Position numbers and translations under genes: made by a program. Below are positions 2 through 18,960 of a stretch of DNA of 21,327 bases, piece after piece. The notes beneath the pieces were generated by a model that saw only the letters and a list, made by a program, of their open reading frames with translations, ran no database searches and had not been told where the DNA came from. Source of the stretch: a virus. The DNA is taken from positions 1 to 21,327 of IMG/VR virus record IMGVR_UViG_3300013131_003860. One strand, 5' to 3'. The stretch's first letter is position 1. Every line of letters begins with the position of its first letter.

Positions 2-766
2 ACACCATCTCCAACAAGTCCGACAAGGACCGCATTCTCAGTGTTTTCGGGACTTACTGAATTGGAAGCTTGTTCTGAATTATATGGGTCTACAACAATT
101 TATGGGGTTGAATCAATATTTGATGAAAATGTACAATTCTATAATTCTGCGACGGGACCTGTTACGGTTAATATGCAGGGTTACTACGAATACAACAACC
201 TTGTTGTTGAGTTAAATTCATCGGGTGCTATTGTTGACTATATTTTGTGTCCTACATTAACACCAACACCAACTAATACGCAAACCCCAACAAACACTGC
301 GACTAATACATCAACACCAACTAATACACCAACAAACACTGCGACTAATACGCAAACCCCAACAAACACTGCGACTAATACGCAAACCCCAACAAACACT
401 GCGACTAATACACCAACACCAACTAATACACCAACAAACACCACAACTAATACGCAAACTCCAACAAACACTACAACCAATACACCAACACCTACTAACA
501 CACCATCTCCAACTCCTACAAGAAGTCACTACGTATATTCGTTAGGAACTGGCGCTACTGCGAACGATGCTTGTATTAACTATGTGTCATCACCAGTAAA
601 CATTTACGCGCCAGCATCTGGCGGACCAGGTCCAAACGTGGGAGAATTCCTGTACACAAATATTGAAACAACCAACCCAGTACCTAATGGTTACTACTCA
701 AATGGTACTTTTGCTTACTCAGTGACAGGTGATTTAGGTCAAATTACAGGAAGTGTCCCTTGTTAA
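2..766 (+). CDS. Modular fibre/adhesin-like structural protein with mucin-like Thr/Pro repeat (3' part)
   Basis: The reading frame is open to the left edge, so this is the C-terminal part of a longer protein; the GTG at 41 is only an internal codon. Visible order: the end of a Thr/Pro linker, a domain of about 65 residues starting near ELEAC, a linker of about 87 residues built on TPTNT units, and a second domain of about 75 residues ending the protein. The two domains share spaced features: an early AC..Y, a central aromatic stretch, a GYY, and a final Cys preceded by a G.I-type strand. This suggests diverged copies of one module. No family was recognised with certainty. The modular plan with Thr-rich linkers, inside a phage structural and glycosyltransferase region, suggests a tail fibre or adhesin (inference). 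A strong terminator follows at once. Confidence 0.75.
260..520 (+). repeat. In-frame Thr/Pro/Asn-coding tandem repeat (30-bp and shorter units)
   Basis: The DNA encodes overlapping TPTNT-type units, most clearly a 10-residue period [10 protein letters not shown]. Bases 351-380 and 381-410 are a perfect 30-bp tandem duplication, and flanking copies differ by a few bases or by shorter units. All units are multiples of 3, so gain or loss of copies would keep the frame. Roughly half of the encoded residues are Thr, as in mucin-like O-glycosylated linkers. Confidence 0.95.
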
Positions 767-794
767 TTCAGAATTTAATTATCATTTTTAAAAG

Positions 795-824
795 AACCCT
801 CCACTTTAATGGAGGGTTTTTTAT
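795..824 (+). terminator. Rho-independent terminator after the repeat protein
   Basis: AACCCTCCA (795-803) pairs perfectly with TGGAGGGTT (810-818) around a 6-nt loop, and a T-rich tract follows. An ATG at 809 lies inside this hairpin, which argues against that codon as the start of the next gene. Confidence 0.88.
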
Positions 825-841
825 TTTTAAAAAAAAATGTA

Positions 842-2104
842 ATGAAAATATTTGTACAAATTGCAAGTTATAGAGACCCACAATTGATTCCAACAATTGA
901 AGATATGTTAAAAAATGCAAAAAAACCTGAAAACTTGGTTTTAGGTATTGCAAGACAATACTCTGAAAAAGACGGGTTTGATAACTTAGACGAGTATAAA
1001 AAAGATAAAAGATTTAGAATATTAGATATTCCATACCAAGAAGCGAAAGGTGTTTGTTGGGCAAGACATTTAGTGCAACAATTATACAAAGGTGAGAAAT
1101 ATACAATGCAAATTGATTCTCATATGAGGTTTGTTAAAGATTGGGATGAAATCCTAATCAATATGATAAAGGGTCTACAAAAAGACGGGTATAAAAAACC
1201 TCTACTTACGGGTTATGTACCCTCTTTTGACCCTGAGAATGACCCTGCGGGTAGAGCACAAGATGCGTGGAGAATGGTATTTGATAGATTTATACCTGAA
1301 GGAGCAGTATTCTTCTTACCCGAGACAATACCAGGTTGGGGAGAAATGACAAAACCCGTACCTGCAAGATTTTACTCGGCACACTTTTGTTTTACAATCG
1401 GTGCTTTCTCAAAAGAGGTACAACACAATCCTGAGTATTATTTCCACGGTGAAGAGATTTCAATTGCCGCAAGAGCATACACTTGGGGTTATGATTTGTT
1501 CCATCCACACCTTCCAATCGTATATCATGAGTATACTAGAAAAGGTAGAACTAAACAATGGGACGATGACAAAACATGGGGAGACAAAAATAAACATTCT
1601 CATTTAACAAATAGAAAGTTATTCGGAATGGATGGAGAAAAACAAGAGGGTCATGATGGTCCTTATGGTTTCGGAACAGTCAGAACCCTTAGGGAATATG
1701 AAAGATATTCTGGATTATTATTTGAAAAAAGAGCAGTAGACCAAAATTGTATTGATAAAAAATATCCACCAAGTCCAAGAATTGAGAACGAAGAAGATTG
1801 GAAAAAAAGTTTTTCTACAATATTCAAACATTGTATTGACGTGGGATACCCAAGTGTTCCTGAAAAAGATTATGATTTTTGGGTTGTCGCATTTCACGGA
1901 CCTGATGACCAAACCTTGTTCAGAAAAGATGCAGATAAAAATGAAATCGCAGGATTTATGAGAGACCCTGATAAGTATTGTAAAATTTGGAGAGAGTTTC
2001 CAACTACTGTATTGCCTAAGTATTGGGTGGTTTGGCCTCACTCAGAATCTAAAGGCTGGTGTGATAGATTAACAGGTCAATTAACCCATAATCACGTAAG
2101 TTAA
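842..2104 (+). CDS. GT60-like (PF11397-type) N-acetylglucosaminyltransferase
   Basis: Predicted glycosyltransferase that would move GlcNAc, or a related sugar, from a UDP-sugar to an acceptor. The N-terminus (KIFVQIASYRDPQLIPTI) and the stretch around YTMQIDSHMRF (Asp92, His94) match the hallmark of the Skp1 GlcNAc-transferase family, where the DSH acts as the DxD-like metal/nucleotide-sugar site. Later conserved-looking parts include FCFTIGAF and the HGEEISIAARAYTWGYDLF stretch. The ATG at 842 is preferred over the in-frame ATG at 809, because 809 lies inside a terminator hairpin and 842 begins exactly at the conserved strand; the product is 420 residues. There is no Shine-Dalgarno sequence. 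Its stop codon overlaps the next ATG by one base, so it is the first gene of a four-gene operon. Known relatives act on polypeptide (hydroxyproline of Skp1; Thr in trypanosome mucins). The acceptor here is unknown. Confidence 0.82.
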   Translation: MKIFVQIASYRDPQLIPTIEDMLKNAKKPENLVLGIARQYSEKDGFDNLDEYKKDKRFRILDIPYQEAKGVCWARHLVQQLYKGEKYTMQIDSHMRFVKDWDEILINMIKGLQKDGYKKPLLTGYVPSFDPENDPAGRAQDAWRMVFDRFIPEGAVFFLPETIPGWGEMTKPVPARFYSAHFCFTIGAFSKEVQHNPEYYFHGEEISIAARAYTWGYDLFHPHLPIVYHEYTRKGRTKQWDDDKTWGDKNKHSHLTNRKLFGMDGEKQEGHDGPYGFGTVRTLREYERYSGLLFEKRAVDQNCIDKKYPPSPRIENEEDWKKSFSTIFKHCIDVGYPSVPEKDYDFWVVAFHGPDDQTLFRKDADKNEIAGFMRDPDKYCKIWREFPTTVLPKYWVVWPHSESKGWCDRLTGQLTHNHVS

Positions 2105-2847
2105 TGAAGTTTAAAGATATACCTAAGTTTGTTGTCAATTTGGATAGAAGGGTTGATAGACTCGAAAGTATTACTTTTGAGCTTTCCTATTTGGGTTGGG
2201 AATGGGAAAGATTTTCAGGAATTGATACCAATTCATACATGGGAATAACTCGCTCTACTTTAGAGATAATAAAAATTGCTAAAGAAAGAAATTACCCTCA
2301 AGTTATGATTATCGAGGACGATTGTTCTGTGATGCCGTATGCAAATAGTTTATTGGATAAAATAGAATCCGAATATCCTAATTTGGAGTATGCAATTTTT
2401 AATTTGGCACCTACACAGAACCGCGAGATAAAAATATCTGACAAATATCCATTATTACTTGATATGACGAATACACCGCCTGCACCTGAAGATGCCCGTG
2501 GTATATACGCCGCGAACATGATTATTTATGACCAATCGATATATGATGAAATGTTTGACATTGCTCTCACAGGGTTTTCAAGTGGTGATTTCTTCCATGC
2601 GTTAGATGATTTTACGTGGAAGTTTATTGTTCAAAACAAACAAAGTTATTGTCCTATTTTACCGATAGCACCACAAAAGGCGGGATATTCTAATATTTCT
2701 GAAGGTATGTATGGTAATTGGTATCTTCAAACATATAATTGGAACAGGTGGACTGAGGTTAAAATACCCAATGAGTTTATGGATGAAGGAAGAGTCATGG
2801 AAATGAAAAGAAAAAAAGAATATAAAGATTTTTATTATGTCAGTTAA
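2104..2847 (+). CDS. GT25-like glycosyltransferase
   Basis: Predicted glycosyltransferase of the LPS/collagen galactosyltransferase type (GT25, LPS-biosynthesis family). The N-terminus FVVNLDRRVDRLESI matches the family opening, in which a VINL strand is followed by a basic DR.dR. It is followed by GWEWERFSGIDT, a G.T.S segment, and the VMIIEDDC motif (Glu71-Asp72-Asp73) expected to bind metal and nucleotide sugar. At 247 residues the length is usual for the family. The start ATG overlaps the upstream stop codon by one base, and the end overlaps the next gene by 11 bases, so translation is probably coupled. Sugar and acceptor cannot be told from sequence. The C-terminal third (KAGYSNISEGMYGNWY onward) is less family-like. 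Confidence 0.75.
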   Translation: MKFKDIPKFVVNLDRRVDRLESITFELSYLGWEWERFSGIDTNSYMGITRSTLEIIKIAKERNYPQVMIIEDDCSVMPYANSLLDKIESEYPNLEYAIFNLAPTQNREIKISDKYPLLLDMTNTPPAPEDARGIYAANMIIYDQSIYDEMFDIALTGFSSGDFFHALDDFTWKFIVQNKQSYCPILPIAPQKAGYSNISEGMYGNWYLQTYNWNRWTEVKIPNEFMDEGRVMEMKRKKEYKDFYYVS

Positions 2848-3718
2848 GTTTATTACTTCAATATACAGTGATTTATATGGAACGGAGTTTGGAGGTAGAC
2901 CAAACAGGGGTGGTCACTATAGATTCAGTTTATTATCACTTCTAAAAATGACAGATGCGGACTTTCTCTGTTATACTTCCGAAAGAGAAATAGATTCTCT
3001 TAAAAGATTTTTTTACGAAGAACATTCTATTGACTCCTCAAAATTGAAGTTCAAAGTTTTCGATATCTCAAATACAAAGTTCAAAGATTTAATTAACCAA
3101 TACAAAGTTGTTGAGGATATCAAAAAAGGAGACAGATGTATAGAAATCCAATATTGTAAGTTCCATTGGTGGTGGAATGAGGATAAATCATATGACTATT
3201 ATTATTGGATTGACGCTGGATTATCACATTGCGGGTTGATACCTTTGAAATATCTCAAGAGTGAACATATGACTGCGAGATATTACGAGAGCACCCTTTT
3301 CAATAATGATTTTCTAAAAAATGTAATTGAAGATACAAAAGAAAAGTTCTTGATATTGGGAAAAGAAAACGTGATGAATTATTGGTCGGGAACTGTAGAT
3401 GCGAAGTGGTATAAAGAATATGATAGGTCTATACATATCATAGGTGGACTTTTTGGCGGACATAAATCCAAATGGGATGAGATTGTTAACTTGTTCGAAG
3501 ACTATACGAGTAAAATAATGTCGGAAGATAAAGGTTTACCACATGAGGAAAATGTTATGACTTTGATGTGGTACAACCACCCTGAATTATTTGAAAGAAA
3601 ACATTTTGATATTTGGTGGTGTAGGGATAATGCACCGAGAGGTACATCTGAAGAGTTGTTTCAAAACAATAAAAGTTTCTTTAGAATCTTAGAAGAATTC
3701 AATAGGATATATGAGTAA
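2837..3718 (+). CDS. HtrL/YibB-like putative glycosyltransferase
   Basis: 293 residues with the layout of the HtrL/YibB (WlaTC) family. There is an N-terminal beta strand with a long segment before the nucleotide-sugar region, then YYYWIDAGLSHCG (Asp126), where the family has a W.D.G-type motif. A GGLFGGHKSKWDE stretch and a HEENVMTLMWYNHPELF stretch follow. The same three landmarks recur in the downstream protein (FWIDGGI, GGFFGG, GTEESIFSIM.YKH), so the two are related in tandem. The family is associated with LPS and surface-glycan loci; its biochemistry is poorly defined. The ATG lies within the end of the preceding gene (11-base overlap), and its own stop overlaps the next ATG by 8 bases. 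No membrane segment or signal peptide is visible, so it is probably cytosolic. Confidence 0.7.
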   Translation: MSVKFITSIYSDLYGTEFGGRPNRGGHYRFSLLSLLKMTDADFLCYTSEREIDSLKRFFYEEHSIDSSKLKFKVFDISNTKFKDLINQYKVVEDIKKGDRCIEIQYCKFHWWWNEDKSYDYYYWIDAGLSHCGLIPLKYLKSEHMTARYYESTLFNNDFLKNVIEDTKEKFLILGKENVMNYWSGTVDAKWYKEYDRSIHIIGGLFGGHKSKWDEIVNLFEDYTSKIMSEDKGLPHEENVMTLMWYNHPELFERKHFDIWWCRDNAPRGTSEELFQNNKSFFRILEEFNRIYE

Positions 3719-5381
3719 TATTACTTTAGTAACTGGTATATGGGATATTGGTAGGTCTGAGCTTTCTGAGGGATGGTCAAGACCTTACAAACATTATTTA
3801 GATAAGTTTGAACAATTATTAAAGATAGATTGTAATCTGATTATATTCGGTAGTAGGGAATTGGAACAATTTGTTTTAGACAGAAGAGATATTTCCAAAA
3901 CTCAATTCATATTCAGAGACTTATCTTGGTTTAGAGAGAATGAGTTTTTCCATAAGATTCAAGAAATTAGAACAAATTCAGATTGGTTCAATATGTCTGG
4001 TTGGTTGAAAGATTCGACGCAAGCTAAGTTGGAAAATTATAATCCTTTGGTTATGTCCAAGGTTTATCTTTTACATGATGCGAAGATTATGGATAGATTC
4101 GATTCTGAACATTTATTTTGGATAGACGGAGGTATAACAAATACTGTTCATCCGGGTTATTTCACACATGACAAAGTGATTGACAAACTTTCGAAATATA
4201 TTTCAAAGTTTTCATTCATATGTTTCCCATATGACGCGAACAACGAAATACATGGATTTGAGTATAATCAACTGAATAGTTTAGCGGGTGCGAAGGTCAA
4301 CAAAGTTGCAAGAGGGGGGTTTTTCGGTGGACCAAAAGATTCGATTTCGGATATCAACTCAATTTATTATGGCTTGATGAAAGACACCTTATCAAACGGG
4401 TTGATGGGTACTGAAGAGTCAATCTTCTCAATAATGACTTACAAACATGCCGATTTGATAAACTACTTTGAAATAGAAGGAAATGGTCTAATTGGAAAAT
4501 TTTTTGAGGATTTGAAGAACGATGAGTTGAAACCAAAGAGTGAGTCTGTTGTTAAGAGTGTCAACAAATTGGATATAAATAAAGTTGGTTTGTATGTTAT
4601 AACTTTCAATAGTCCCAAACAATTCAAGACATTGATTGATTCTATGTTGGCTTATGATAAGGATTATATAAATAAAACAAAAAAGTTCCTATTAGACAAC
4701 TCGAGTGATGAATCAACTTTTGGTGAATATAAATTATTGTGTGACGAATACGGATTTGAACATATTAAAAAAGATAATTTGGGAATATGTGGTGGCAGAC
4801 AATTTATAGCAGAACACTTCAATGACACGGATTTAGACTATTATTTATTTTTTGAAGATGATATGTTCTTCTACCCTGACGAAGGAGTATGTAGAAATGG
4901 ATTCAACCGATACGTTCAAAACCTTTATACAAAATCTTTAGAAATTGTAAAAAAAGAAAACTTCGATTTTATTAAATTGAATTATTCTGAGTTTTATGGT
5001 GATAATGGAACTCAGTGGTCTTGGTACAATGTTCCTCAGGATGTAAGAACAAAATTTTGGCCATTTAACCCAAGACTTCCACAAATGGGATTAGACCCGA
5101 ACGCACCAAAAACAACCTTCGAAAAGATTCTGAGTTATAAAGGTGTACCATATGCTTGTGGTGAAGTTTATTATTGTAATTGGCCTCAGATTGTGAGTAG
5201 AGACGGTAATAAAAAAATGTTCTTAGACACAACTTGGGCACATCCATTTGAACAAACGTGGATGAGCCATATGTATCAGTTGACGAAGAAAGGTGATTTA
5301 TCTAGTGGTTTACTATTATTAACACCTACTGAACACAACAGGTTCGAACATTACCAAAGAGAATTACGTAAAGAGTCATAA
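3711..5381 (+). CDS. Bifunctional glycosyltransferase: HtrL/YibB domain fused to GT2-like (GT-A) domain
   Basis: 556 residues in two parts. Residues 1-265 look HtrL/YibB-like: ITLVTGIWDIGR at the start, FWIDGGIT (Asp139), RGGFFGG near 201 and MGTEESIFSIM near 232. A linker of about 25 charged residues leads to a second domain from about 292, VGLYVITFNSPKQFKTLIDSM, which is the opening strand and helix of a GT2-type GT-A fold. It is followed by DNSSDES, DNLGICGGRQ and the metal-binding FFEDDMFF (Glu382-Asp383-Asp384). A late DTTWAHPFEQTWMSHMYQL stretch may hold the base or acceptor site. Both catalytic regions look intact, so two different transfers by one polypeptide are likely. It is the last gene of the overlapping four-gene operon; the gap to the next gene is a palindrome of 24 bp. 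Confidence 0.75.
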   Translation: MSNITLVTGIWDIGRSELSEGWSRPYKHYLDKFEQLLKIDCNLIIFGSRELEQFVLDRRDISKTQFIFRDLSWFRENEFFHKIQEIRTNSDWFNMSGWLKDSTQAKLENYNPLVMSKVYLLHDAKIMDRFDSEHLFWIDGGITNTVHPGYFTHDKVIDKLSKYISKFSFICFPYDANNEIHGFEYNQLNSLAGAKVNKVARGGFFGGPKDSISDINSIYYGLMKDTLSNGLMGTEESIFSIMTYKHADLINYFEIEGNGLIGKFFEDLKNDELKPKSESVVKSVNKLDINKVGLYVITFNSPKQFKTLIDSMLAYDKDYINKTKKFLLDNSSDESTFGEYKLLCDEYGFEHIKKDNLGICGGRQFIAEHFNDTDLDYYLFFEDDMFFYPDEGVCRNGFNRYVQNLYTKSLEIVKKENFDFIKLNYSEFYGDNGTQWSWYNVPQDVRTKFWPFNPRLPQMGLDPNAPKTTFEKILSYKGVPYACGEVYYCNWPQIVSRDGNKKMFLDTTWAHPFEQTWMSHMYQLTKKGDLSSGLLLLTPTEHNRFEHYQRELRKES

Positions 5382-5865: not shown

Positions 5866-8655
5866 ATGATATCTAACACAGAAATTGAATCATTTCTGCA
5901 AGGAAATGACCCCGAACCTTTTATAGTTGCAATTGAGTTTGACTACGCATCTAATTCCATTTTCAAAATCAAAGAAGAACCCGGTAAAGGAAAAGAAATC
6001 CGAAAGGATACTTTTGTTCCTTTCGCGTGGGTTGGAGATTTACGTGGGCTGAACTTTTATAATGATTCCAAAATGGCCCAAAAAGAGGGTATGTCAAAAT
6101 ATGGTATTGTTATTGAAAAACTTGAAACCAAAGGTGATGAAAGACTTGAGAAAGGTTTGACCTTCATGGTAAAATCTCTCAAAGGATATAGAGAATTGAT
6201 TCAGTTTTTTAGAGATGGTGGTTGTGACCCTTGGGGTGAGAAAGCGAAGGATAGAATTATGATTTTACCGCCAGTAGAACAGTATTTTATCTCTAAAGAA
6301 AAAAGATTGTTCAAAGGATATGATGACTACGACCAAGTTACTCGTCTCGTATTTGACTTAGAGACTAACGCTCTTGACCCCAAAGATGGTCGAATCTTTA
6401 TGATAGGAATCAAAACAAACAAAGGTTATCATAAGGTAATTGAGTGTCTTGATGAGTCACAAGAAAAAGGTGCTATTATCGAGTTTTTCAATATTATTAA
6501 CGAAATCAAACCATCAATCATTGGTGGGTACAATTCCGCAAACTTCGACTGGCACTGGTTATTTGAAAGAGGTCAAAGATTGGGTATCGATTTGAGAAAA
6601 TCAATCAAATCATTACATCCACAACATTCATACACAAGAAAAGAAACAATCTTGAAGTTAGCAAACGAGGTTGAGGACTTCACTCAAACTTCAATTTGGG
6701 GTTATAATGTGATTGATATTATTCATGCGGTTCGAAGGGCTCAGGCCATCAATTCTAACATAAAAGCGGCCGGTCTTAAGTATATTACAAAATATATTGG
6801 TCAAGAAGCTCCTGACCGTGTTTATATCGACCACACGGATATCGGAAAAATGTATGCAGCTAAGGAAGAGTATTGGTTAAATACTCAAAATGGAAAATAT
6901 AAAAAGGCCTCTGAGTATGCGGATTTGGATATAAAGTTTCCTGGTGTATATATTAAGACCACAGGCGATAATTTAGTTGAAAGATATCTTGATGATGACT
7001 TAGAAGAAACCTTGGCGGTTGATAAAGAGTTCAACCAAGCGTCGTTTTTTCTCGCTTCTATGATTCCAACGACATATGAAAGAGTTGCTACTATGGGTAC
7101 TGCAACACTTTGGAAGATGCTTATGTTAGCTTGGTCATACAAACACAACTTGGCTATCCCCGAAAAACAACAGAAGACAGATTTTGTCGGTGGACTTTCT
7201 CGTCTACTAAAAGTTGGTTACTCAAAGAATGTTCTCAAACTTGACTTCTCCTCTCTTTATCCTTCTATACAACTTGTCCATGACGTGTTCCCCCAATGTG
7301 ATGTCTCAGGAGCCATGAAAGGAATGCTTAAATATTTCCGTGATACCCGTATCAGGTATAAACAACTTGCTGAAGAGTTTGAAAAAACTGACTTACAAAA
7401 ATCTGTATCATATTCAAACAAACAATTACCAATCAAGATTTTTATCAACTCGATGTTCGGTGCCTTATCTGCTCCACAAGTTTTTGCGTGGGGTGACATG
7501 TATATGGGAGAACAGATTACTTGTACGGGTAGACAGTATCTCCGTCAAATGATTAAGTTTTTCATGAGTAAAGGTTATACCCCGCTCGTTATGGATACGG
7601 ACGGTGTAAACTTTTCAAGTCCTGACGACGTTGATACACATAGGTATATTGGTCGAGGATTGAATTGGAAGGTCAAGGTTGGAAAAGAATACAACGGCCC
7701 TGATGCTGATGTAGCTGAATATAATGACATCTTTATGAGGGGGGAAATGGCTTTAGATACGGATGGCGTTTGGCCTTCATGTATAAACCTTGCCAGAAAA
7801 AATTATGCGGTCATGGATGCAAAAGGGAAGATAAAGTTGACTGGCAATTCCATTAAATCAAAGAAGCTTCCACTGTATATCGAAACGTTCTTAGATAAGG
7901 GTATCAAGATGTTACTTGAAGGTAAAGGAAAAGATTTTATCGAATACTATTACGAGTATCTCAAAGTAATATTTGACCAAAAGATTCCACTTTCTCAAAT
8001 TGCTCAAAGAGCTAAAGTCAAATTGACTTTAGATGACTATAAGAAAAGATTAACACAGAAAACCAAAGCGGGAAATAGTATGTCTCGGATGGCACATATG
8101 GAACTTGCAATTCAACAAAATCTAAGTGTAAATTTGGGTGATGTAATAATGTATGTTAATAACGGTAAGAAAGGTTCTCAGGGTGATGTTCAGAAGATGA
8201 CGGCTAAACAAATCAAGGACCTAAATGAATATAACAAAACTCAGAACCCTAAAGCTAAAATGGTTGAAGATGGAGTAATTGTAAATTGTTATATGTTAGA
8301 CCCAAGTACTTTTGAATCAAACCCAAATCTTACGGGGGATTATAATGTACCGAGAGCAATAGCCACTTTCAATAAAAGAATCGAACCTTTATTGGTTGTG
8401 TTTAAACAAGAGGTTAGGGATGGTTTGATTGTTGCTGACCCTGAGAACAGAGGTATTTTTACAACTGCTCAGTGTGAGTTGATTAATGGTATGCCGTTCG
8501 GAGAGGATGACCAAGATAAGTTAGAAGAAGACGTTCTTAAAATTACAGAACAAGAATTGGACTATTGGAAACGTAGAGGTTTAGAACCTACTTACATCTA
8601 TGAACTTGCTGAAAAAGATTGGGAAGGAAAATTAGGATTGTTTCAAACCGTCTGA
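5866..8655 (+). CDS. Family B replicative DNA polymerase with 3'-5' exonuclease (T4 gp43 type)
   Basis: Replicative polymerase that copies the phage genome and proofreads. Residue numbers are counted from the frame opening at 5776. Exo I is VFDLETN (Asp194, Glu196), Exo II is YNSANFDW (Asn253, Asp258) and Exo III is the YLDDDLEET region near 326. Motif A is LDFSSLYPS (Asp490), motif B is KIFINSMFG (Lys554, Asn558) and motif C is MDTDGVNF (Asp607, Asp609). All catalytic acids are present. Motif C has Gly where most family B enzymes have Ser (DTDS). The frame opens at TTG 5776, right after the previous stop, but ATG 5866 is preferred: the first 30 residues look non-homologous and a promoter-like TATTTAT lies between the two. 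From 5866 the protein has 929 residues, close to the size of T4 gp43. The 3' end overlaps a convergent gene by 24 bases. Confidence 0.93.
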   Translation: MISNTEIESFLQGNDPEPFIVAIEFDYASNSIFKIKEEPGKGKEIRKDTFVPFAWVGDLRGLNFYNDSKMAQKEGMSKYGIVIEKLETKGDERLEKGLTFMVKSLKGYRELIQFFRDGGCDPWGEKAKDRIMILPPVEQYFISKEKRLFKGYDDYDQVTRLVFDLETNALDPKDGRIFMIGIKTNKGYHKVIECLDESQEKGAIIEFFNIINEIKPSIIGGYNSANFDWHWLFERGQRLGIDLRKSIKSLHPQHSYTRKETILKLANEVEDFTQTSIWGYNVIDIIHAVRRAQAINSNIKAAGLKYITKYIGQEAPDRVYIDHTDIGKMYAAKEEYWLNTQNGKYKKASEYADLDIKFPGVYIKTTGDNLVERYLDDDLEETLAVDKEFNQASFFLASMIPTTYERVATMGTATLWKMLMLAWSYKHNLAIPEKQQKTDFVGGLSRLLKVGYSKNVLKLDFSSLYPSIQLVHDVFPQCDVSGAMKGMLKYFRDTRIRYKQLAEEFEKTDLQKSVSYSNKQLPIKIFINSMFGALSAPQVFAWGDMYMGEQITCTGRQYLRQMIKFFMSKGYTPLVMDTDGVNFSSPDDVDTHRYIGRGLNWKVKVGKEYNGPDADVAEYNDIFMRGEMALDTDGVWPSCINLARKNYAVMDAKGKIKLTGNSIKSKKLPLYIETFLDKGIKMLLEGKGKDFIEYYYEYLKVIFDQKIPLSQIAQRAKVKLTLDDYKKRLTQKTKAGNSMSRMAHMELAIQQNLSVNLGDVIMYVNNGKKGSQGDVQKMTAKQIKDLNEYNKTQNPKAKMVEDGVIVNCYMLDPSTFESNPNLTGDYNVPRAIATFNKRIEPLLVVFKQEVRDGLIVADPENRGIFTTAQCELINGMPFGEDDQDKLEEDVLKITEQELDYWKRRGLEPTYIYELAEKDWEGKLGLFQTV

Positions 8656-8967
8656 TGACAATATATACCAGTGGCCGTTAGCGAATAAGAACTCAACACA
8701 AGCAAACTTATCTAAAATAAGTTCATCATATTCTTCATCGATTTTACTTACATCAGGTAAAATTATTACCCTTGTCATGGCTTTGATAACTATGTGGTCT
8801 GTTGTAGAGGAATCCAAAATCACATTCGAATGAGCAATTCCTCTCACGATAATTTTAGATTCTCCATGTGTTCTATAATCTAATTCTGATACTACAGAAA
8901 TTTCCGAAGTATTGACTATGTTACCGTTGATGATTCTTTTTGCTGGAATAGTTCTTACAATTGCCAT
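8632..8967 (-). CDS. Small beta-rich protein with C-terminal WYILSSDGLK motif; unknown function
   Basis: 111 residues. Repeated short strands (RTIPAKRIINGNIVNTSEI, SKIIVRGIAHSNVILD, HIVIKAMTRVIILPD) are followed by an acidic turn and a C-terminal block, FLFANGHWYILSSDGLK. I associate this kind of ending (strand, gap, W.(I/V)LSSDG.K) with C-terminal domains of phage structural proteins, so a small virion or fibre-associated protein is likely, but I cannot name a family. It lies 3 bases after the gp13 gene on the same strand and is surely co-transcribed with it. Its 3' end runs 24 bases into the convergent polymerase gene, with no visible terminator between them. Confidence 0.72.
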   Translation of the reverse strand: MAIVRTIPAKRIINGNIVNTSEISVVSELDYRTHGESKIIVRGIAHSNVILDSSTTDHIVIKAMTRVIILPDVSKIDEEYDELILDKFACVEFLFANGHWYILSSDGLKQS

Positions 8968-8970
8968 AAA

Positions 8971-10098
8971 TTAAATTACATATATTTGACGGGGCATTGC
9001 TCTAAACCTCATTTGTTTATTCAAGTTTTCGGCAATATTAGCTTCCCTCTCCATTACTTTTTCGGGTCTCAATCTTGATAACCAACCATTCTCACCAATC
9101 AATTCCTCAAGTAACTTTGATTTTTCGTCTTTACCTTCAGTTGCTAAACTAGCGTAATCCATTGTGATTTCACTATCTGGTGTTTTTAGGTTACCTGAAT
9201 ATTTTCCTCTAACTCTTGATAGAGTTTCTTTACAATAAGCGGTGAACCATCTTCTTACCCATTGCTGACCTGGAACATTCAAATCCTCCCAACTCAATTC
9301 TGAGATTGGAACATCTGTTGGTAATTTGATAACATCTGGATTGTTTTTCAAACAATCGGCTCTGCTGTCAGGTTCTACATCATAGTACCAATACCAAACG
9401 GCTTTTCCTACGTATAAATTGTAATTTGACCAATTGAACTTACCACCAGGCGTGTTGTAAAGATGAATCATCTTTTTTCCGTCAGGTAATCCTGTAATTC
9501 TGTAAGTTAAGGAACCACCTAAGATTCTGTTTAGGATATTTGCTTCTTGCATTCTTATGAGATAGTCAAAACCTGACATCATAAAGTAAGAACCTTGATA
9601 TCCCATTTGGGCGTAACCTGCTTCGTTAGCACCTAATCCTATCCCACCAAATCCAAAACCACCTAAACCTCCGAGTCCGAAGGCGGTCCAAGCTTGGTTA
9701 CTGAACCATAAAAGTTCATTTACCTCACGACCTGCAGGTATTTCATAATCTTGTTTGTTGGCTTCAAGAATAAAATAGTCTTTCTTGAGGACCCAAGGAC
9801 CCTCTGTTTGTAGACCAACAATTTTGGAATAAGAGTAGCTGAACTGTTGTTCAAAATCCATCGTCCTTGTGATGAGAGCACGAGCAACAGACCTTTCATT
9901 CATGTTCAAATTGACCAAGTTTACCCATTGACTATCAATGAGCCATTGAAGAACATACTCCTCGTAATCTCCGAGCGATAGCTCAACCAAAGAGTCTAAC
10001 ATCTCGTCAGTAAGTTCAACACTTCTTAGAGGAGCACCTAATAGGTGTTTGATTCTTGTATAAAGTCGTGACCTTTCTGGTTCTGGAATTGCCGCCAT
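8971..10098 (-). CDS. T4 gp13-like neck protein
   Basis: Head-completion/neck protein that closes the portal vertex after packaging and joins head to tail. The N-terminus (RIKHLLGAPLRSVELTDEML, then a helix ending in DYEEYVLQWL) matches T4 gp13, which opens LRRLGAPIINVELT and continues with an ALELYGEYH helix. A Gly-rich loop (about residues 140-158) sits where T4 gp13 has its Gly-rich segment. The C-terminal part, QQWVRRWFTAYCKETLSRVRGKYSG, followed by an acidic helix (SKLLEELIGENGWL), mirrors [24 protein letters not shown] and the following helix in gp13. It has 375 residues against about 309 in T4, with the extra length in the middle. It is encoded on the strand opposite to the tail block. 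A TATTTAT element (coding sense) ends 5 nt before its ATG. Confidence 0.8.
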   Translation of the reverse strand: MAAIPEPERSRLYTRIKHLLGAPLRSVELTDEMLDSLVELSLGDYEEYVLQWLIDSQWVNLVNLNMNERSVARALITRTMDFEQQFSYSYSKIVGLQTEGPWVLKKDYFILEANKQDYEIPAGREVNELLWFSNQAWTAFGLGGLGGFGFGGIGLGANEAGYAQMGYQGSYFMMSGFDYLIRMQEANILNRILGGSLTYRITGLPDGKKMIHLYNTPGGKFNWSNYNLYVGKAVWYWYYDVEPDSRADCLKNNPDVIKLPTDVPISELSWEDLNVPGQQWVRRWFTAYCKETLSRVRGKYSGNLKTPDSEITMDYASLATEGKDEKSKLLEELIGENGWLSRLRPEKVMEREANIAENLNKQMRFRAMPRQIYVI

Positions 10099-10103
10099 AT
10101 TCT

Positions 10104-10110
10104 ATAAATA
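10104..10110 (-). promoter_or_regulatory. TATTTAT promoter-like element ahead of gp13-like gene
   Basis: Reads ATATATTTATAGAAT on the - strand, 5 nt before the ATG at 10098. The spacing resembles that of a -10 element for leaderless mRNA. Same core as other intergenic copies. Confidence 0.4.
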
Positions 10111-10116
10111 TATTCT

Positions 10117-11652
10117 TTATTCAATTTCGTGTAATAAAGCATTTTTTGGGAATATGTAACGACCGTTCAATATTTTACAATCGTTTTTGAAAATCAAAAC
10201 GTGATTAGACTTGGTTTGGAAAAATATCATCCAATTCACATTATATTCTTTCACATCTGCATCTGTGAAAATTATATATGTGTCTTTAGCTGTCTTGAAA
10301 TAATTGTAAGGTTTGACCTGACATGTGTGGACTCTGTCGTTTATCGTGATAGTTAAATCAACACCTTTGATAGCATCCAATTTTTTTCCCGCACCACTAG
10401 TTTTTTCGATTGTAGCGTCACCTTCAAAATATAAATCAATTTTTTTCAATACACTGTTTTCAGAATCCTCCCCACGTTTCCAAGTTTTCAACAAAACCTT
10501 AAGGATATTGATGAACTCAGAGTTTTCTTTCGAATAAAGTTTGTTTGCAAAATAATCCAAAGCTTTACCGAAACGAATAATTTCTTGAGGTGTTCTTTTC
10601 TTTTCATCGTAAAAATTGAAGATTTTTTCTGGTTTACCTCTTCCTTGAATTAGATTGTTAACCGCTTTTACCATTAAACAGAAAGTGTTATGGTTGGTAT
10701 TAAGATTGTTCAAAACAGACCTGCCCTCAGATTCCAAATTATAAAACCCAGACATAGTATCATTCGTTTGTTCCGCCCAAGCATCACCGAAAACTTTTCT
10801 CAAAGAATTGGTAATTGCTTTGATGTATATCCTTTTCATAGTCTCATCGAACAGGATTTCTTTGTATACCGAAACATCGTCCTTTGAACAAAATTGGGCG
10901 GTGTCTTTTTCATCAATCAATTTTTTGAACTCAATTTGTTCAAGTAATTTCGTTTCAACTTTCATTTCGAAAAGTTTAGACACAAACTCCCAATTGACTA
11001 CTTTCCAAAAGTTTGATATGTACTCGTCTCTTTTGTTTTTATATTTCAAATAGTATGCGTGTTCCCATAAATCTAACCCTAAGAGAGGAAACCCACCCCC
11101 CTCAATTACGTTCATCAAAGGATTGTCTTGATTTGGGGTAGACATAATTTTAAGTTGGTTTTTTGGTGTTAGTATAAGCCACACCCAACCAGAACCAAAT
11201 CTATCTTTAGCAATAGTCTCGAACTTTTTCTTGAAGTTAGTAAAGGTACCAAATTCTTTAGTTATCTTTTCGAATAGTTCACCTTCCAATTTTTTTGGTT
11301 TAGGTGTTAGCATGTTCCAAAAAAGTGCGTGGTTAAAAGCACCACCAGCGTTATTTCTGATTGTTTTATCGTATCTGTCGATATTCTTGATAATGTTTTC
11401 TAAATCAACATCACCCTTCTTTTTCTTTGACAACGCATCGTTAAGTTTATCAACATACCCTTTGTAATGTTTGTTGTAATGGAAGTTCATTGTCTCGGGG
11501 TCAATGAATTGTTTCAGGGCTGTGTAGGAATAAGGTAATTTCTCTATTCCGATTTTTTTCATTTCTGTAATCAACAAGGACTTTTCATTTTGTATGTGTC
11601 TCTCTTGAATTTGTTTTTCAATTTGTTGAATCCTCTTTTCTGTATTCTGCAT
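10117..11652 (-). CDS. Mn-type superoxide dismutase fused to C-terminal PD-(D/E)XK-like nuclease domain
   Basis: 511 residues in one open frame. Residues 1-36 form a charged, probably coiled-coil N-terminus. Residues 37-230 are a full Fe/Mn superoxide dismutase (2 superoxide to oxygen and peroxide). The metal ligands are His58, His108 (NNAGGAFNHALFW), Asp194 and His198 (LGLDLWEHAYY); Tyr66 matches the second-shell Tyr34. Gly104 and Gln175 (NQDNPLM) are the Mn-type signature. Residues 231-400 are helical and unassigned. Residues 405-490 look like a restriction-endonuclease fold: Glu415 on a helix, GAGKKLDAIKGVDLTI (Asp432), then a strand with CQVKP (Gln445, Lys447), a D...QxK arrangement like Mrr-type enzymes. 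The SOD core is clear; the nuclease call is moderate. It follows the SNF2 helicase by 41 bases and precedes gp13. DNA targeting or a role in oxidative host defence is inference. Confidence 0.85.
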   Translation of the reverse strand: MQNTEKRIQQIEKQIQERHIQNEKSLLITEMKKIGIEKLPYSYTALKQFIDPETMNFHYNKHYKGYVDKLNDALSKKKKGDVDLENIIKNIDRYDKTIRNNAGGAFNHALFWNMLTPKPKKLEGELFEKITKEFGTFTNFKKKFETIAKDRFGSGWVWLILTPKNQLKIMSTPNQDNPLMNVIEGGGFPLLGLDLWEHAYYLKYKNKRDEYISNFWKVVNWEFVSKLFEMKVETKLLEQIEFKKLIDEKDTAQFCSKDDVSVYKEILFDETMKRIYIKAITNSLRKVFGDAWAEQTNDTMSGFYNLESEGRSVLNNLNTNHNTFCLMVKAVNNLIQGRGKPEKIFNFYDEKKRTPQEIIRFGKALDYFANKLYSKENSEFINILKVLLKTWKRGEDSENSVLKKIDLYFEGDATIEKTSGAGKKLDAIKGVDLTITINDRVHTCQVKPYNYFKTAKDTYIIFTDADVKEYNVNWMIFFQTKSNHVLIFKNDCKILNGRYIFPKNALLHEIE

Positions 11653-11658
11653 ATTTGT

Positions 11659-11684
11659 GAGTTATTCGTTATTATAAATAACTC
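11659..11684 (-). promoter_or_regulatory. Inverted repeat with TATTTAT motif between helicase and SOD-nuclease genes
   Basis: GAGTTATT and AATAACTC form a perfect 8-bp inverted repeat around a 10-nt loop. On the - strand, TATTTAT lies at 11674-11680, 21 nt before the ATG at 11652. No T-run follows on the - strand, so an internal promoter/operator or a processing site is more likely than a terminator. Confidence 0.45.
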
Positions 11685-11693
11685 AATATTTTG

Positions 11694-13451
11694 TTATTTC
11701 CTCAGCTCGTTTATTCTTTTTAATATTTCTTCTGCAGCATCTGAGGAATCTACATGGTCACCTAATACAGTTGAAATGTTTTTTTTCTTATCATTCACAA
11801 TTGCGTAGATGATTCCTTCAATTGTGTTTTCAAAAATGGGATAATATACTAAAACGTTATTTTTTTGTCCGTATCTGTAAGCTCTGTCTTCGGCTTGACT
11901 CATGTCACCAGGAACAAATGATAAATCGTTAATAATCACAGCTTCGGCTGCGGTGAGGGTTAATCCGACACCAGCGGCTTTTATATTACCAACAAAGACT
12001 CTTATCTTATCGTTGTCTTGGAATGAATCAACACTTAGTTGTCTTTCCCCTTTGGATAGAGAACCATCAACTTTGACTGCGGTCTTACCGAAATGTTCAC
12101 AGATTTTGTTTAATGATTCGGTGAAATTACAGAATATGATTATTTTTTTTCCTTGTTCTATGATGTTTTCGGCAAGTTCAATTGTTTGGTCGATTTTCTC
12201 ATTAGCAATAATTTGGCGAACCTTTGTGAGTTTTGTAAATTGTACTGTCAATGATTTTGATTCTTCTGGTTTTTTATCTAACCAATTATAGTATTCACCC
12301 ATTACTTCCTCATAGTCCTTTGATTTGAGTCTTAGATATATTGGGGTAATTATTTTTTCAGGTAAATCCAATACGTCTTCTTTCAATCTCCTTAATGTCA
12401 GTCCTGAAGTACGGTCTCTGAGTTCCTCTAAGTTTGAGGCACCCATAACATTCCAAACTTTTCTCACACCTACCTTGAATTGATATCCACTACAATATCT
12501 TATTACATAAGCCATCCAATTTTTGGCAACAGGCGAATCAACCAAACTCAATAAATTGAAATAGTCGATAGGTCTTGATGTCATGGGTGTTCCCGTTAGT
12601 AACCAAAGTCTGTCAACTTTTTTTACTAAGTCATTTATTAATTTCGTTCTTTGCGCTTGAGCGTTTTTAATATAGTGTGCTTCGTCAATAACCACCAAAT
12701 CAAAACCGGCTCTAAGAATCTGTGAATCATCTTTCTTTTTCGAGTCATGGAAGTTTTTTAATATATCATAATTTATTATAACAAAGTCGTGTTCTGTACT
12801 AAAACTTTTACCTTCCGAAATATACACTGACCTATCGGTATAGTTTTCAATTTCTCTTTTCCAATTTATTTTTAAAGTTGCAGGACAAATGATTAAAACT
12901 TTTTTTGCTCCTGTCTCCAAAGCGGCTATAATTGTTGAGGTGGTTTTTCCCAACCCCATATCATCCGCCAAAATGAACTTTTTGTTTTCAACTAATTTTT
13001 GTATAGATTCTTTCTGATGATTAAGTGGTGGTCTATTGGAATATTTGTCATAATTAATTACCACATTTTTCACAGTGTTGTCTTTTATCACTGACGCCTT
13101 AGGTAACCAAAAATCGTAGAGTTCTTCTGTTTCCCAAACCCTTCCCCAAATATGAAACGCTTTATCTTTTTCTGCCAATATTTTTTCTACCCAAACTTTT
13201 TTGGGTATTTCGGTGTATAATTTATCATCCGCTAATTTTTGTGCAAAGTATGAATCGAGTATTACCCACTTTCTTGCGACTTTGGGGTTTTGGTCGTGAT
13301 TGTCAATTATGTATTGAGACTGAGCTCTTGTTGGGTAAAACCTTTTGTTCGTTTGAAACTTCCTTTTTAAGGACAAGATGTAGTTGTTGGCGCCATCGTA
13401 GGTTTCCAAATGTGTTATTGCTCTTGACTCTAATGAAAGATTACTACTCAT
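11694..13451 (-). CDS. SNF2-family (SMARCAL1-like) DNA helicase/translocase
   Basis: ATP-driven double-stranded DNA translocase of helicase superfamily 2, SNF2 group, 585 residues. Visible motifs: Q-like LNHQKESI near 143, motif I ILADDMGLGKTTS (160-172), Ia IICPATLKINW, II VVIDEAH (256-259), III WLLTGTPMTS (286-292), IV IIIFCNF, V AAGVGLTLTAA and VI QAEDRAYRYGQ (518-528). All key residues are present. The N-terminal 140 residues carry phage-type segments (FYPTRAQSQYIIDN, FHIWGRVWET) but no recognised nuclease or zinc finger. Possible roles are replication fork remodelling or recombination (as for T4 UvsW, which belongs to another SF2 branch), or displacement of proteins from DNA. The start codon overlaps the stop of the SET gene by one base, so the two are translationally coupled. 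Confidence 0.9.
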   Translation of the reverse strand: MSSNLSLESRAITHLETYDGANNYILSLKRKFQTNKRFYPTRAQSQYIIDNHDQNPKVARKWVILDSYFAQKLADDKLYTEIPKKVWVEKILAEKDKAFHIWGRVWETEELYDFWLPKASVIKDNTVKNVVINYDKYSNRPPLNHQKESIQKLVENKKFILADDMGLGKTTSTIIAALETGAKKVLIICPATLKINWKREIENYTDRSVYISEGKSFSTEHDFVIINYDILKNFHDSKKKDDSQILRAGFDLVVIDEAHYIKNAQAQRTKLINDLVKKVDRLWLLTGTPMTSRPIDYFNLLSLVDSPVAKNWMAYVIRYCSGYQFKVGVRKVWNVMGASNLEELRDRTSGLTLRRLKEDVLDLPEKIITPIYLRLKSKDYEEVMGEYYNWLDKKPEESKSLTVQFTKLTKVRQIIANEKIDQTIELAENIIEQGKKIIIFCNFTESLNKICEHFGKTAVKVDGSLSKGERQLSVDSFQDNDKIRVFVGNIKAAGVGLTLTAAEAVIINDLSFVPGDMSQAEDRAYRYGQKNNVLVYYPIFENTIEGIIYAIVNDKKKNISTVLGDHVDSSDAAEEILKRINELRK

Positions 13452-13846
13452 TAAATTATTTTAGTGTCAGACCTTCCGTCATTCCAGTAGTCATCACCTC
13501 CGTACCAGACAAATATTTCTTCATCGGGTAAGATTTCATTCAAGGCATAAAACTCAAATGCGTCTAATTCGTGGTTCGACCTCCAGCTTGCATTTGGCTT
13601 ATTGCTATGGTTATAGAAACTTGAAAACCCGAGACCAACGACTTGTTTGTCCCAATTGCTATTTCCTTGTGGCCAGTTAAATCTGTGATTTATTAAAGTG
13701 GCACTTGAAATTCCTTTGGGTATTTCAAGGTCTAAGTAAGGACATATTTCAAAAACCTCGTTTATGAATATTTTTTCTGAAGCAAATACTCCTTTTCCGT
13801 GAATTGGACTTTTTGCTAGGTAAATTTTCTTTGGGGGTCGTATCAT
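13451..13846 (-). CDS. SET-domain protein-lysine methyltransferase
   Basis: 131 residues, almost entirely a compact SET domain, which uses S-adenosylmethionine to methylate lysine in proteins. Motifs in order: KSPIHGKGVFASEKI (opening strand and G.G.FA), CPYLDLEIP, HRFNWPQ, GFSSFYNHSNKPNASW (the NHS..PN pseudoknot that binds AdoMet) and FYALNEILPDEEIFVWYG (E-E-I and the conserved catalytic-site Tyr before Gly). There are no post-SET cysteines, as in short bacterial and phage SET proteins. The substrate is unknown. It is the first gene of the - strand cluster and is coupled to the SNF2 helicase gene by a one-base stop/start overlap. A divergent gap of 49 bp separates it from the late + strand block. 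Confidence 0.88.
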   Translation of the reverse strand: MIRPPKKIYLAKSPIHGKGVFASEKIFINEVFEICPYLDLEIPKGISSATLINHRFNWPQGNSNWDKQVVGLGFSSFYNHSNKPNASWRSNHELDAFEFYALNEILPDEEIFVWYGGDDYWNDGRSDTKII

Positions 13847-15738: not shown

Positions 15739-18700
15739 ATGGCAACAGCACAAGTTAATCAAAAAGTTTTTGTATCACCTGGTGTTTATACTTCTGAGAC
15801 GGACTTATCGTTCGTGGCACAGAGTGTCGGTGTTACAACCTTAGGTTTGGTTGGTGAGACAATTAAGGGTCCAGCTTTCGAACCAATTTTTATAACAAAT
15901 TACGATGAGTTTCAGGCCTACTTCGGTGGTTCTGAACCAACTAAATTTGTGAATACACAAATCCCAAAATATGAGGCGGCTTACATCGCTAAGTCTTATT
16001 TACAACAATCAAACCAATTGTTCGTTACAAGGGTGCTCGGTTTGTCAGGTTATGATGCGGGTCCTTCGTGGAGTATAACTGTAAATGCAAATGTAGACCC
16101 TACAACTATCGGTTTGTCTACAGGTGTCGGAACGGCTTTCACAGTTAATTTTGAGGGTAACTCAACAGGTAATACATTTAGTTTTACAACAGGGTCACTA
16201 CCTCCAGCGGTAACTGCAGAACTATTCCAACAATATAGAATGGCTGATGGTAGTACGTCTACTATCTTTGCTGATATATCATCACAAATTGGTTTAATTT
16301 TAGATACACCATCTTTATCCTCAACAACTTCCGTTTTTTACGGTGCAATTGATGAGACAGATTATTGGAATGTTGTTGACCAATTTTCAGCGGTTACAAA
16401 TCAATATGCTTGTGACTCTGTAAATTTGGCTCAAAACGATTTGACAGCGGCAAGTAATGACGCTTGGTATTACGCTAATTTCGGTAATTATTCTGCAGAC
16501 AATTATTCGGGATATTCTTGGTATTATACTGTATCAAGTCTATCAGGTGATGGTAATTCAAACTTTGTGGGTACTATAACAGGTATGTCTTATAATTTCT
16601 CAGGAACTGCTTTCGGAGAATATAATGGAATGGTAGTTGCTACACTTCGTTCGAGAGGTATTTCCTTATTCACAAATGATGCAGATAGTGATAATCACGG
16701 ACCTGTTTATCAGGTAACTGGTCTAACTGATGTTGTGCTTGTTTGTTCAAATCAGTATTCAGGAATTACAAATGACCCATTCAACGTCGCTGGTTTCTTG
16801 ATTTCAGGTATCACTAATGATAATGATACTTTCTCATTCGAAACTTCTTTAGCGGCTTCTTCATCGAAGTTCTTAACTAAAGTTTTGGGTGTTGATAATT
16901 TTGGTAAATCTAGAACTGAGGTTCCTTTGTTTGTAGAGGAAATATATCCAAGTAGTTTAGCTTACGCATATAATCAAGGTTATATTCGTGGTCTAAATTG
17001 TAATTTGATTGCTCTACCTGGTGCTAGAAGTGAAAACCCTCAATCTATTGCTTATAAAGTTACTCAATACAAATCACCAGAAACTCCTTTCTTCGTTTCT
17101 GAGTTGAGAGGTAATAAAGTTTATAATTTATTCAAGTTAATTTCTATATCTGATGGTGATTTAGCTAACACTGAAATCAAAGTTTCAATCACGAATATTT
17201 CTTTCAACAATATGTCTTTCGATATACTTGTAAGAAACTTCTTTGATACAGATGCTAATCCGATTGTGATTGAGAAGTTTACTAACTGTAACTTAGACCC
17301 TGATGATAATAATTTCATAGGTGTTAAAATCGGTACTTCAAATGGTGAGTACGCGTTACTTTCAAAATATATCATGGTTGAGATGGCGGATGAAGCTCCT
17401 ATTGATGCTTTACCTTGTGGATTCTATGGTTATAGACAAAGAGAATACGGTGATGTAACAGTGAATCCTTCTCCCTATATAAAATATAAAACTAAGTATG
17501 ATTTTCCTGGTGAGGTTATTTTGAATCCTCCTTTCGGTACAAGTACTGGTGGAAGTAATACTGTAGAATCTCCTGGCGATATCGTTAGAAGAAGTTATCT
17601 CGGTTTCTCTACTCAGATTGGTATTGATGAGTCTTTCTTGTCTTACAAAGGAGCTCAAAATCCTATCGATTGGGTTAACTCAGCATTACCTGTTGATGGG
17701 GCTAGATGGAATGTACTTTCAAAAGGTTTCCACATGGACTCAGGTGCTACGGTTGTTACAATTGCAAACAGCTTCTTGACTAGTGGTGAAACCGCTTTCG
17801 AGTGCGGAACCGCTGATTTTAGAAGCGACCCAGAGACACAAGAGAATCCATATTACTTCATCTATTCAAGAAAGTTCACTACATGTTTTGCAGGTGGTTT
17901 TGATGGATGGGATATCTATAGAGAGTTCAGAACAAATCAGGATAGATTCCAACTTGGTTCAAACGGTTATTTGGCAGGTTCTTCACCTTCTCAAAGATAC
18001 CCAACAGCAACAGGACAAGGTTTATTCAAGAGAATTGTTGTTCAGAATAATACACAAGATTTCGCAAACACTGACTACTACGCTTATTTGCTTGGTATCC
18101 TAACGTTTGCAAATCCTGAATCAACTAACATCAACGTGTTCGCAACTTCATCAATTGATTATGTAAATAACTCCAACTTGGTTGAAGAGGCAATTGACAT
18201 GGTACAATTCTCAAGAGCTGACTCTGTATATATTGCAACAACTCCTGACTACTTAATGTATACACCTGACGGAACAAACTCCTTGGATATAATTTATCCT
18301 CAAGAAGCTGTTGATAATTTGGACAATACAGGAATTGATTCTAACTATACTGCAACATACTATCCTTGGATTCTAACAAGAGATACGGTTAATAATACAC
18401 AAATATACTTACCACCAACGGGTGAGGTTTGTAGAAACTTAGCTTTAACTGATAATATTGCTTTTCCATGGTTCGCTTCGGCGGGTTATACGAGGGGTCT
18501 TGTTGATTCAATCAAAGCGAGAGTGAAGTTGACTCAAGAAGATAGAGATACATTGTATCAAGGAAGAATCAACCCTATCGCAACATTTGCTGATGTAGGA
18601 ACAGTTATTTGGGGTAATAAAACATTACAAGTTGCTGACTCTGCACTCAATAGATTAAATGTAAGAAGATTGTTGTTACAAGCTCGTAAATTAATTTCAG

Positions 18701-18960
18701 CGGTGGCTGTTAGATTGTTATTCGAACAGAACGACCAAATTGTTAGACAACAGTTCTTAGATTCGGTTAACCCAATCTTAGATGGTATCAGAAGAGACAG
18801 AGGTCTTTACGATTTCCGTGTAACGGTTTCTTCTTCACCTGAAGATTTGGATAGAAACACACTTTCAGGTAAAGTTTACCTTAAACCTACGAAGGCACTT
18901 GAGTTCATAGAAATTGAATTCTTTATAACTCCAACAGGAGCATCCTTCGAAAATATCTAA
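15739..18960 (+). CDS. Contractile tail sheath protein (T4 gp18 type), enlarged
   Basis: Forms the contractile sheath around the tail tube. The N-terminus (VFVSPGVYTSETDLSFVAQSVGVTTLGLVGETIKGPAFEP, then ITNYDEFQAYFGG and YIAKSYLQQSNQLFVTRVLG) is the usual sheath opening. The C-terminal 150 residues hold FPWFASAGYTRGLVDS, LYQGRINPIATF, VIWGNKTLQVADSALNRLNVRRLL and a final beta segment, all typical of gp18. At 1073 residues it is far longer than T4 gp18 (about 659). The excess lies mainly at about 115-385 (Ser/Thr/Asn/Tyr-rich, beta-like) and 450-560 (ISDGDLANTEIKVSITNISF onward), probably surface domains. There is no Shine-Dalgarno sequence; the leader carries TATTTAT. A strong terminator follows 8 bases after the stop, which allows high monocistronic expression. 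Confidence 0.95.
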   Translation: MATAQVNQKVFVSPGVYTSETDLSFVAQSVGVTTLGLVGETIKGPAFEPIFITNYDEFQAYFGGSEPTKFVNTQIPKYEAAYIAKSYLQQSNQLFVTRVLGLSGYDAGPSWSITVNANVDPTTIGLSTGVGTAFTVNFEGNSTGNTFSFTTGSLPPAVTAELFQQYRMADGSTSTIFADISSQIGLILDTPSLSSTTSVFYGAIDETDYWNVVDQFSAVTNQYACDSVNLAQNDLTAASNDAWYYANFGNYSADNYSGYSWYYTVSSLSGDGNSNFVGTITGMSYNFSGTAFGEYNGMVVATLRSRGISLFTNDADSDNHGPVYQVTGLTDVVLVCSNQYSGITNDPFNVAGFLISGITNDNDTFSFETSLAASSSKFLTKVLGVDNFGKSRTEVPLFVEEIYPSSLAYAYNQGYIRGLNCNLIALPGARSENPQSIAYKVTQYKSPETPFFVSELRGNKVYNLFKLISISDGDLANTEIKVSITNISFNNMSFDILVRNFFDTDANPIVIEKFTNCNLDPDDNNFIGVKIGTSNGEYALLSKYIMVEMADEAPIDALPCGFYGYRQREYGDVTVNPSPYIKYKTKYDFPGEVILNPPFGTSTGGSNTVESPGDIVRRSYLGFSTQIGIDESFLSYKGAQNPIDWVNSALPVDGARWNVLSKGFHMDSGATVVTIANSFLTSGETAFECGTADFRSDPETQENPYYFIYSRKFTTCFAGGFDGWDIYREFRTNQDRFQLGSNGYLAGSSPSQRYPTATGQGLFKRIVVQNNTQDFANTDYYAYLLGILTFANPESTNINVFATSSIDYVNNSNLVEEAIDMVQFSRADSVYIATTPDYLMYTPDGTNSLDIIYPQEAVDNLDNTGIDSNYTATYYPWILTRDTVNNTQIYLPPTGEVCRNLALTDNIAFPWFASAGYTRGLVDSIKARVKLTQEDRDTLYQGRINPIATFADVGTVIWGNKTLQVADSALNRLNVRRLLLQARKLISAVAVRLLFEQNDQIVRQQFLDSVNPILDGIRRDRGLYDFRVTVSSSPEDLDRNTLSGKVYLKPTKALEFIEIEFFITPTGASFENI

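Follow-up and report, generated by a model that had tools for sequence, protein, structure and literature searches.

In this work, we ask whether a phage may O-glycosylate the Thr/Pro-rich linkers of its own structural proteins. The question is raised by a gene for a protein with a mucin-like repeat, directly followed by a gene for a GT60-like glycosyltransferase. The window, i.e. the whole stretch of DNA analysed, is a 21,327-base viral contig with T4-like tail genes, and its first genes probably constitute a phage-encoded module for mucin-type protein O-glycosylation. The tail genes are located at its other end:

15739-18960, tail sheath (family profile match)
19924-20412, tail tube
20484-21227, baseplate-like protein

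The sheath protein is 1073 aa long, and the profile is matched by approximately its last 215 residues only, the N-terminal remainder making up most of the protein.

The gene with the repeat (TP, Thr/Pro-rich) opens the window and comprises the following features:

2-766, + strand, TP-linker protein, proposed acceptor, 5' end truncated by the contig edge
20-256, + strand, bead domain copy 1, with two conserved Cys (HMM match 5e-17)
254-520, + strand, mucin-like linker of 89 aa with T at alternate residues and most P within TPTx units
521-763, + strand, bead domain copy 2 (AlphaFold2 model, pLDDT 93)

The open reading frame thus encodes two copies of one 71-aa domain connected by the linker. The layout of two domains and a TPTNT-type linker, given in the preliminary description, was confirmed, while the linker length had to be corrected from about 87 to 89 aa. 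The linker contains 46 T, 16 P and 16 N. T occupies 44 of the 45 even offsets and 2 of the 44 odd ones. As a Thr/Ser/Pro-rich tandem repeat with dense potential O-sites, the linker qualifies as a mucin-like domain. Its Thr codons (21 ACA, 16 ACT, 5 ACC and 4 ACG) include all four possible, hence the T pattern is held at the protein level. The linker DNA is also recognisable as a tandem repeat, and repeat expansion as its sole cause is ruled out by this codon usage. The flanking domains belong to one family, the match of copy 1 having been obtained with an HMM built from copy 2. The same HMM found 224 copies in related loci, distributed over 140 proteins which are all TP-rich, and C18 and C81 are invariant in an alignment of 49 copies. 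No Pfam match and, with Foldseek against PDB, no fold match was found for the bead domain; its matches in the viral library were uncharacterised phage proteins only.

Downstream of the TP gene we located:

791-822, + strand, intrinsic-terminator-like hairpin between the TP gene and the GT60 gene (13 pairs, 5 of them G-C, then a T run)
842-2104, + strand, GT60 (PF11397) putative polypeptide glycosyltransferase of 420 aa (PF11397 profile, AlphaFold2 fold)
1115-1123, + strand, DSH metal motif
1526-1528, + strand, His229, third predicted metal ligand

The terminator reported earlier between the two genes is indeed present, and of 56 distinct intergenic sequences from relatives 50 have kept it; because it splits the TP gene from the GT60 gene, no operon argument can be made for their functional link. 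As the start of the GT60 gene we took the conserved ATG at 842, since the match of close relatives begins there; the ATG at 809 falls within the terminator. The IDSHMRF motif is present at residues 91-97, and the assignment to the GT60 family was confirmed by a profile search, in which PF11397 was matched with E 2.5e-69 (235 bits vs a cut-off of 21), and the same profile was matched by all 39 homologs scanned. In 39 GT60 homologs from phages and bacteria D92-S93-H94 and H229 do not vary, DxH replacing DxD.

The AlphaFold2 model of the enzyme (mean pLDDT 93) has a GT-A fold with GT27 structures as its top matches. In Foldseek, ranks 1-42 are polypeptide GalNAc-transferases, as are the 29 best VIA entries (Z 19.3-22.2), while other GT-A enzymes reached at most 17.7. 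GT27 enzymes share the DxH motif type with the window enzyme and differ from it in sequence, with 12-16% identity in structural alignments, so that a common function is suggested by the fold. At E 0.001 only PF11397 was found in the protein, with no GT27-type catalytic (Glycos_transf_2) or ricin-lectin profile. A sequence search of PDB gave no GT60 relative; its matches to fatty-acid-binding proteins (E 0.24-1) were dismissed as noise. At its C-terminus, beyond the common GT-A core, the model has a beta-rich region (residues ~320-415) predicted with confidence; the ppGalNAc-transferases carry their lectin domain at this end.

GT60 and GT27 have been placed in one clade, both using DxH and both modifying Ser/Thr of polypeptides (PMC7185993), and TcOGNT1, a GT60 member, forms GlcNAc-alpha-O-Thr in Trypanosoma cruzi mucins (PMC9472816). 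The published members modify polypeptide Thr or hydroxyproline (PMC7185993, PMC9472816, PMC6939170), in agreement with what the preliminary description states of the family. We therefore consider it very probable that the GT60 of the window acts on a polypeptide.

The GT60 gene is followed by three further genes of the same cassette:

2104-2847, + strand, GT25-like protein, possible extender (PF01755, E 3.2e-6 over 38 residues; relatives in 70 of 81 loci)
2837-3718, + strand, conserved cassette protein (74 of 81 loci)
3711-5381, + strand, protein with an HtrL_YibB domain and a C-terminal GT2-like region, possible extender (PF09612, E 2e-18; 81 of 81 loci)

The GT2 match was seen in a Saprospiraceae homolog of the last protein, referred to below as YibB-GT, and a short and weak BLASTP match (E 8e-4 over 49 residues) connects it with the 2837-3718 protein. 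YibB-GT also shows a very weak similarity (E 0.003) to the phage DNA glucosyltransferase family phrog_842. Phage glycosyltransferases often modify DNA, and both observations would fit a cassette that glycosylates phage DNA with hypermodified bases in the manner of T4. We find this hardly credible for an enzyme whose family modifies polypeptides and whose nearest folds are polypeptide GalNAc-transferases, and it would leave the association with TP-rich proteins unexplained.

That association is found throughout the clade of the window: all 81 loci have a TP-rich ORF near GT60, and in 75 of them such an ORF ends shortly before the GT60 gene begins. Beyond the clade, TPTxTPT codon patterns occurred in 21/21 GT60-positive records of one sample and in 34/50 diverse GT60 records, the 16 negatives being fragments of 18-77 kb. 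The absence of co-occurrence across relatives, named beforehand as an argument against the idea, was not observed: each of the 29 GT60-sampled records that reach 100 kb contains TPTx repeats, vs a single TPTx match in one of 40 control phage records sampled on a DNA-polymerase motif, of which only three exceed 100 kb, limiting a size-matched comparison. PF11397 was found in none of these 40 controls, and in 15 of 48 records sampled on TP repeats (10 of 16 when only those of 100 kb or more are counted). A shorter TP pattern, applied to 17 GT60-positive fragments in which matches were few or absent, performed no better than its backwards control. All these counts are not independent, since the records share ancestry.

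The same material can be read differently, with the TP linkers as unmodified flexible spacers, the GT60 cassette acting on some other virion or host protein and the association arising from the descent and lifestyle that large tailed phages have in common. TP linkers do exist in phages devoid of GT60 (6 of the 16 records sampled on TP that reach 100 kb), and no glycosyltransferase was present among the scanned neighbours of TP genes in GT60-negative records, which leaves unsupported the idea that another such enzyme always replaces GT60 nearby. Moreover, the clade of the window has inherited its GT60 gene order as a fixed block which includes polB. Nevertheless, we regard the spacer explanation as unlikely, for three reasons: the position of the TP genes, the recurrence of the association in distant phages, and the regularity of the linkers.

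The position was analysed in 75 loci left after removal of redundancy at 90% GT60 identity. In 32 of them GT60 is directly preceded by a TP-rich gene, vs 7.0 expected from gene shuffling (maximum of 17 in 20,000 permutations), and in none is it directly followed by one. When the linkers are masked, these 32 upstream neighbours form 8 groups without BLASTP similarity at E 1e-4, which may still be distantly homologous. One-sided adjacency therefore recurs with dissimilar TP proteins, and the genomic link of GT60 to TP-rich proteins is a strong one.

Recurrence at a greater distance was seen in a collection of 50,697 phage records, only three of which (XacN1, RAS14 and CM1) contain a GT60 homolog at E 1e-5. 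XacN1 and RAS14, the two considered further, are both TP-rich. Their other genes are barely similar to those of the window. In XacN1 the identity is 48% for GT60 (ORF334), 41% over 557 aa for YibB-GT (ORF330) and 30% for the homolog of the 2837-3718 protein, vs 34% over 190 aa only for the sheath and 22% for the tube, and no match was found there for the polymerase, helicase and superoxide dismutase fusion of the window. Conservation with XacN1 is thus higher for the two glycosyltransferases than for any virion protein of the window, and RAS14 gives a nearly identical picture. The XacN1 cassette groups ORF334, 332 and 330 with a carbamoyltransferase, the latter being of NodU type and located after GT60 (11409-13706 of locus L083; PF16861, E 4.6e-57), which suggests carbamoylated glycans. 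XacN1, a very divergent phage, also differs from the window in that its many TP genes are dispersed and no GT25-like homolog was found. Sheath and baseplate genes of XacN1 are neighbours of its TP-rich ORFs 369-372 and 325, a position from which we regard the TP-rich proteins as putative virion proteins; the TP protein of our contig may be part of the virion too. Further linkers of this kind occur in XacN1 ORFs 232-237, 350 and 384. XacN1 is a jumbo phage in which, according to its description (PMC5852040), virion proteomics revealed at least two glycoproteins, for which its authors proposed phage glycosyltransferases as the makers; the text consulted makes no link between the enzyme and TP linkers. 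In that study the virion spectra (deposited as PXD008065) were searched with oxidation and deamidation as the only modifications.

As for the linkers, their (T/S)-x lattice and TPT core are kept across lineages, while x varies, being N/P/Q/E in the clade of the window vs P/V/I/A/R in XacN1. Arg makes up 3.3% of the XacN1 linkers, which should therefore yield some tryptic peptides. A persistent lattice with changing x would be expected if acceptor sites along an extended chain were under selection. Unmodified stiff linkers could likewise yield it, but the Thr lattice is stricter than a spacer role seems to require. It is thus likely, in our opinion, that the TP linkers are the acceptor of GT60.

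GT60 genes are also present in many bacterial genomes. Among the neighbour proteins scanned, nearly all of them encoded immediately upstream, 28 of 40 are fimbrial adhesins, close species being over-represented in this count. Examples of GT60 genes directly after fimbrial tip adhesin genes are found at 8942-9949 in locus L604, 8732-9889 in L550 and 8870-9958 in L565; in the first of them, from Yersinia pekkanenii, a type VI secretion gene (TssF) lies just beyond. In a genome bin of Saprospiraceae, GT60 and a YibB-GT fusion are found together with a TP/Ser-rich protein that bears a secretion-sorting domain. Apart from this bin, TP-rich genes near bacterial GT60s are rare and most loci are without one. 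In Jiulongibacter sediminis (L554) apparently two GT60-like genes (7951-8868 and 9971-11230), the second recognised by eye, flank a TP-rich ORF. A quickly built tree, some branches of which are long, intermingles GT60s of phages with those of bacteria and places XacN1 and RAS14 in a supported group other than that of the window's clade. These neighbourhoods bear on yet another reading, in which the enzymes change host surface glycans (LPS or capsule), e.g. to exclude other phages. The PF01755 profile matched by the GT25-like protein is indeed annotated as LPS biosynthesis; still, we give this reading very little credence, as the genes co-occur with TP-rich phage proteins, beside tail genes in XacN1, and the bacterial homologs adjoin adhesin genes.

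Own-linker O-glycosylation, as proposed at the outset, has passed the co-occurrence test and is supported computationally. It gains further from the ppGalNAc-transferase-like fold, from a cassette of several glycosyltransferases common to very distant phages, from the glycoproteins reported in the XacN1 study (PMC5852040) and from the bacterial GT60 genes beside adhesin genes. We propose that the GT60, a transferase with a predicted GT-A fold, a DxH metal site and no recognisable export signal, would work in the host cytoplasm before assembly, adding HexNAc to Thr in the T-x-T-x linkers of freshly synthesised phage structural proteins. The HexNAc would most likely be alpha-GlcNAc derived from host UDP-GlcNAc, a choice which we moderately favour by analogy with the precedent of the family. 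The GT25-like and YibB-GT proteins would then probably extend or decorate the first sugar. The expected product resembles beads on a string, with small two-Cys domains separated by stiff, extended and densely glycosylated linkers, and there is a good chance that such proteins are displayed on the virion, on its tail or another surface. The most likely role of the glycans would be stiffening and protease resistance; shielding or receptor engagement is possible as well.

The closest known systems are the retaining UDP-GlcNAc:polypeptide alpha-GlcNAc-transferases of family GT60 in protists (TcOGNT1 of T. cruzi, Gnt1 of Dictyostelium and Toxoplasma), with which the window enzyme shares PF11397, DxH and a predicted GT-A fold and, in the case of TcOGNT1, the association with Thr/Pro-rich mucin-like proteins. 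In contrast to them, it is encoded by a phage, presumably cytoplasmic in a bacterium and accompanied by other glycosyltransferases in a cassette, and its donor and acceptor are predicted ones. Phage virion glycosylation in general is known. For mycobacteriophages (Freeman et al. 2023, cited after PMC12619734) it was likewise proposed that the phage modifies its virion proteins and that the glycans act as a shield. Their glycans are located at the C-termini of capsid and tail-tube subunits, in contrast to the dedicated Thr-lattice linkers and the GT60 enzyme considered here. Searches of open-access literature that combined GT60 with phage, or were directed at phage glycoproteins of Thr-rich or O-linked type, returned nothing relevant, and no prior description of the GT60/mucin-linker version was found there.

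On balance, we lean slightly towards a still broader system, widespread and horizontally exchanged among phages, in which a GT60 initiator and extenders place a glycan at about every second linker residue in many virion proteins per genome, in parallel to trypanosome mucins, a bacterial branch of the enzyme family being devoted to adhesins. If so, mucin-type polypeptide O-glycosylation by GT60 would be common in large environmental phages, and enzyme-acceptor pairs could be read straight from genomes. An acceptor would be proposed for phage and bacterial GT60s in a family whose characterised members in the literature consulted were all from protists, and the virion glycoproteins reported in XacN1 would be accounted for. 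Unexplained glycosyltransferase clusters in large phages would gain a testable reason, and compact enzymes with regular acceptor repeats might serve for making mucin-like polymers in bacteria.

Some minor observations were made along the way. In a 310-kb record (G055; locus L461, 7593-10052, - strand) a divergent GT60 is fused within an 820-aa ORF to an added C-terminal part. The superoxide dismutase fusion of the window (10117-11652, - strand) is a phage gene with Fe/Mn superoxide dismutase domains (PF02777, E 1.4e-39, and PF00081) followed by ~285 more residues. The SET domain is a lysine-methyltransferase fold usually encountered in eukaryotes and some bacteria, and a 131-aa SET-domain protein (PF00856, E 3.6e-12) is encoded in the window at 13451-13846 on the - strand.
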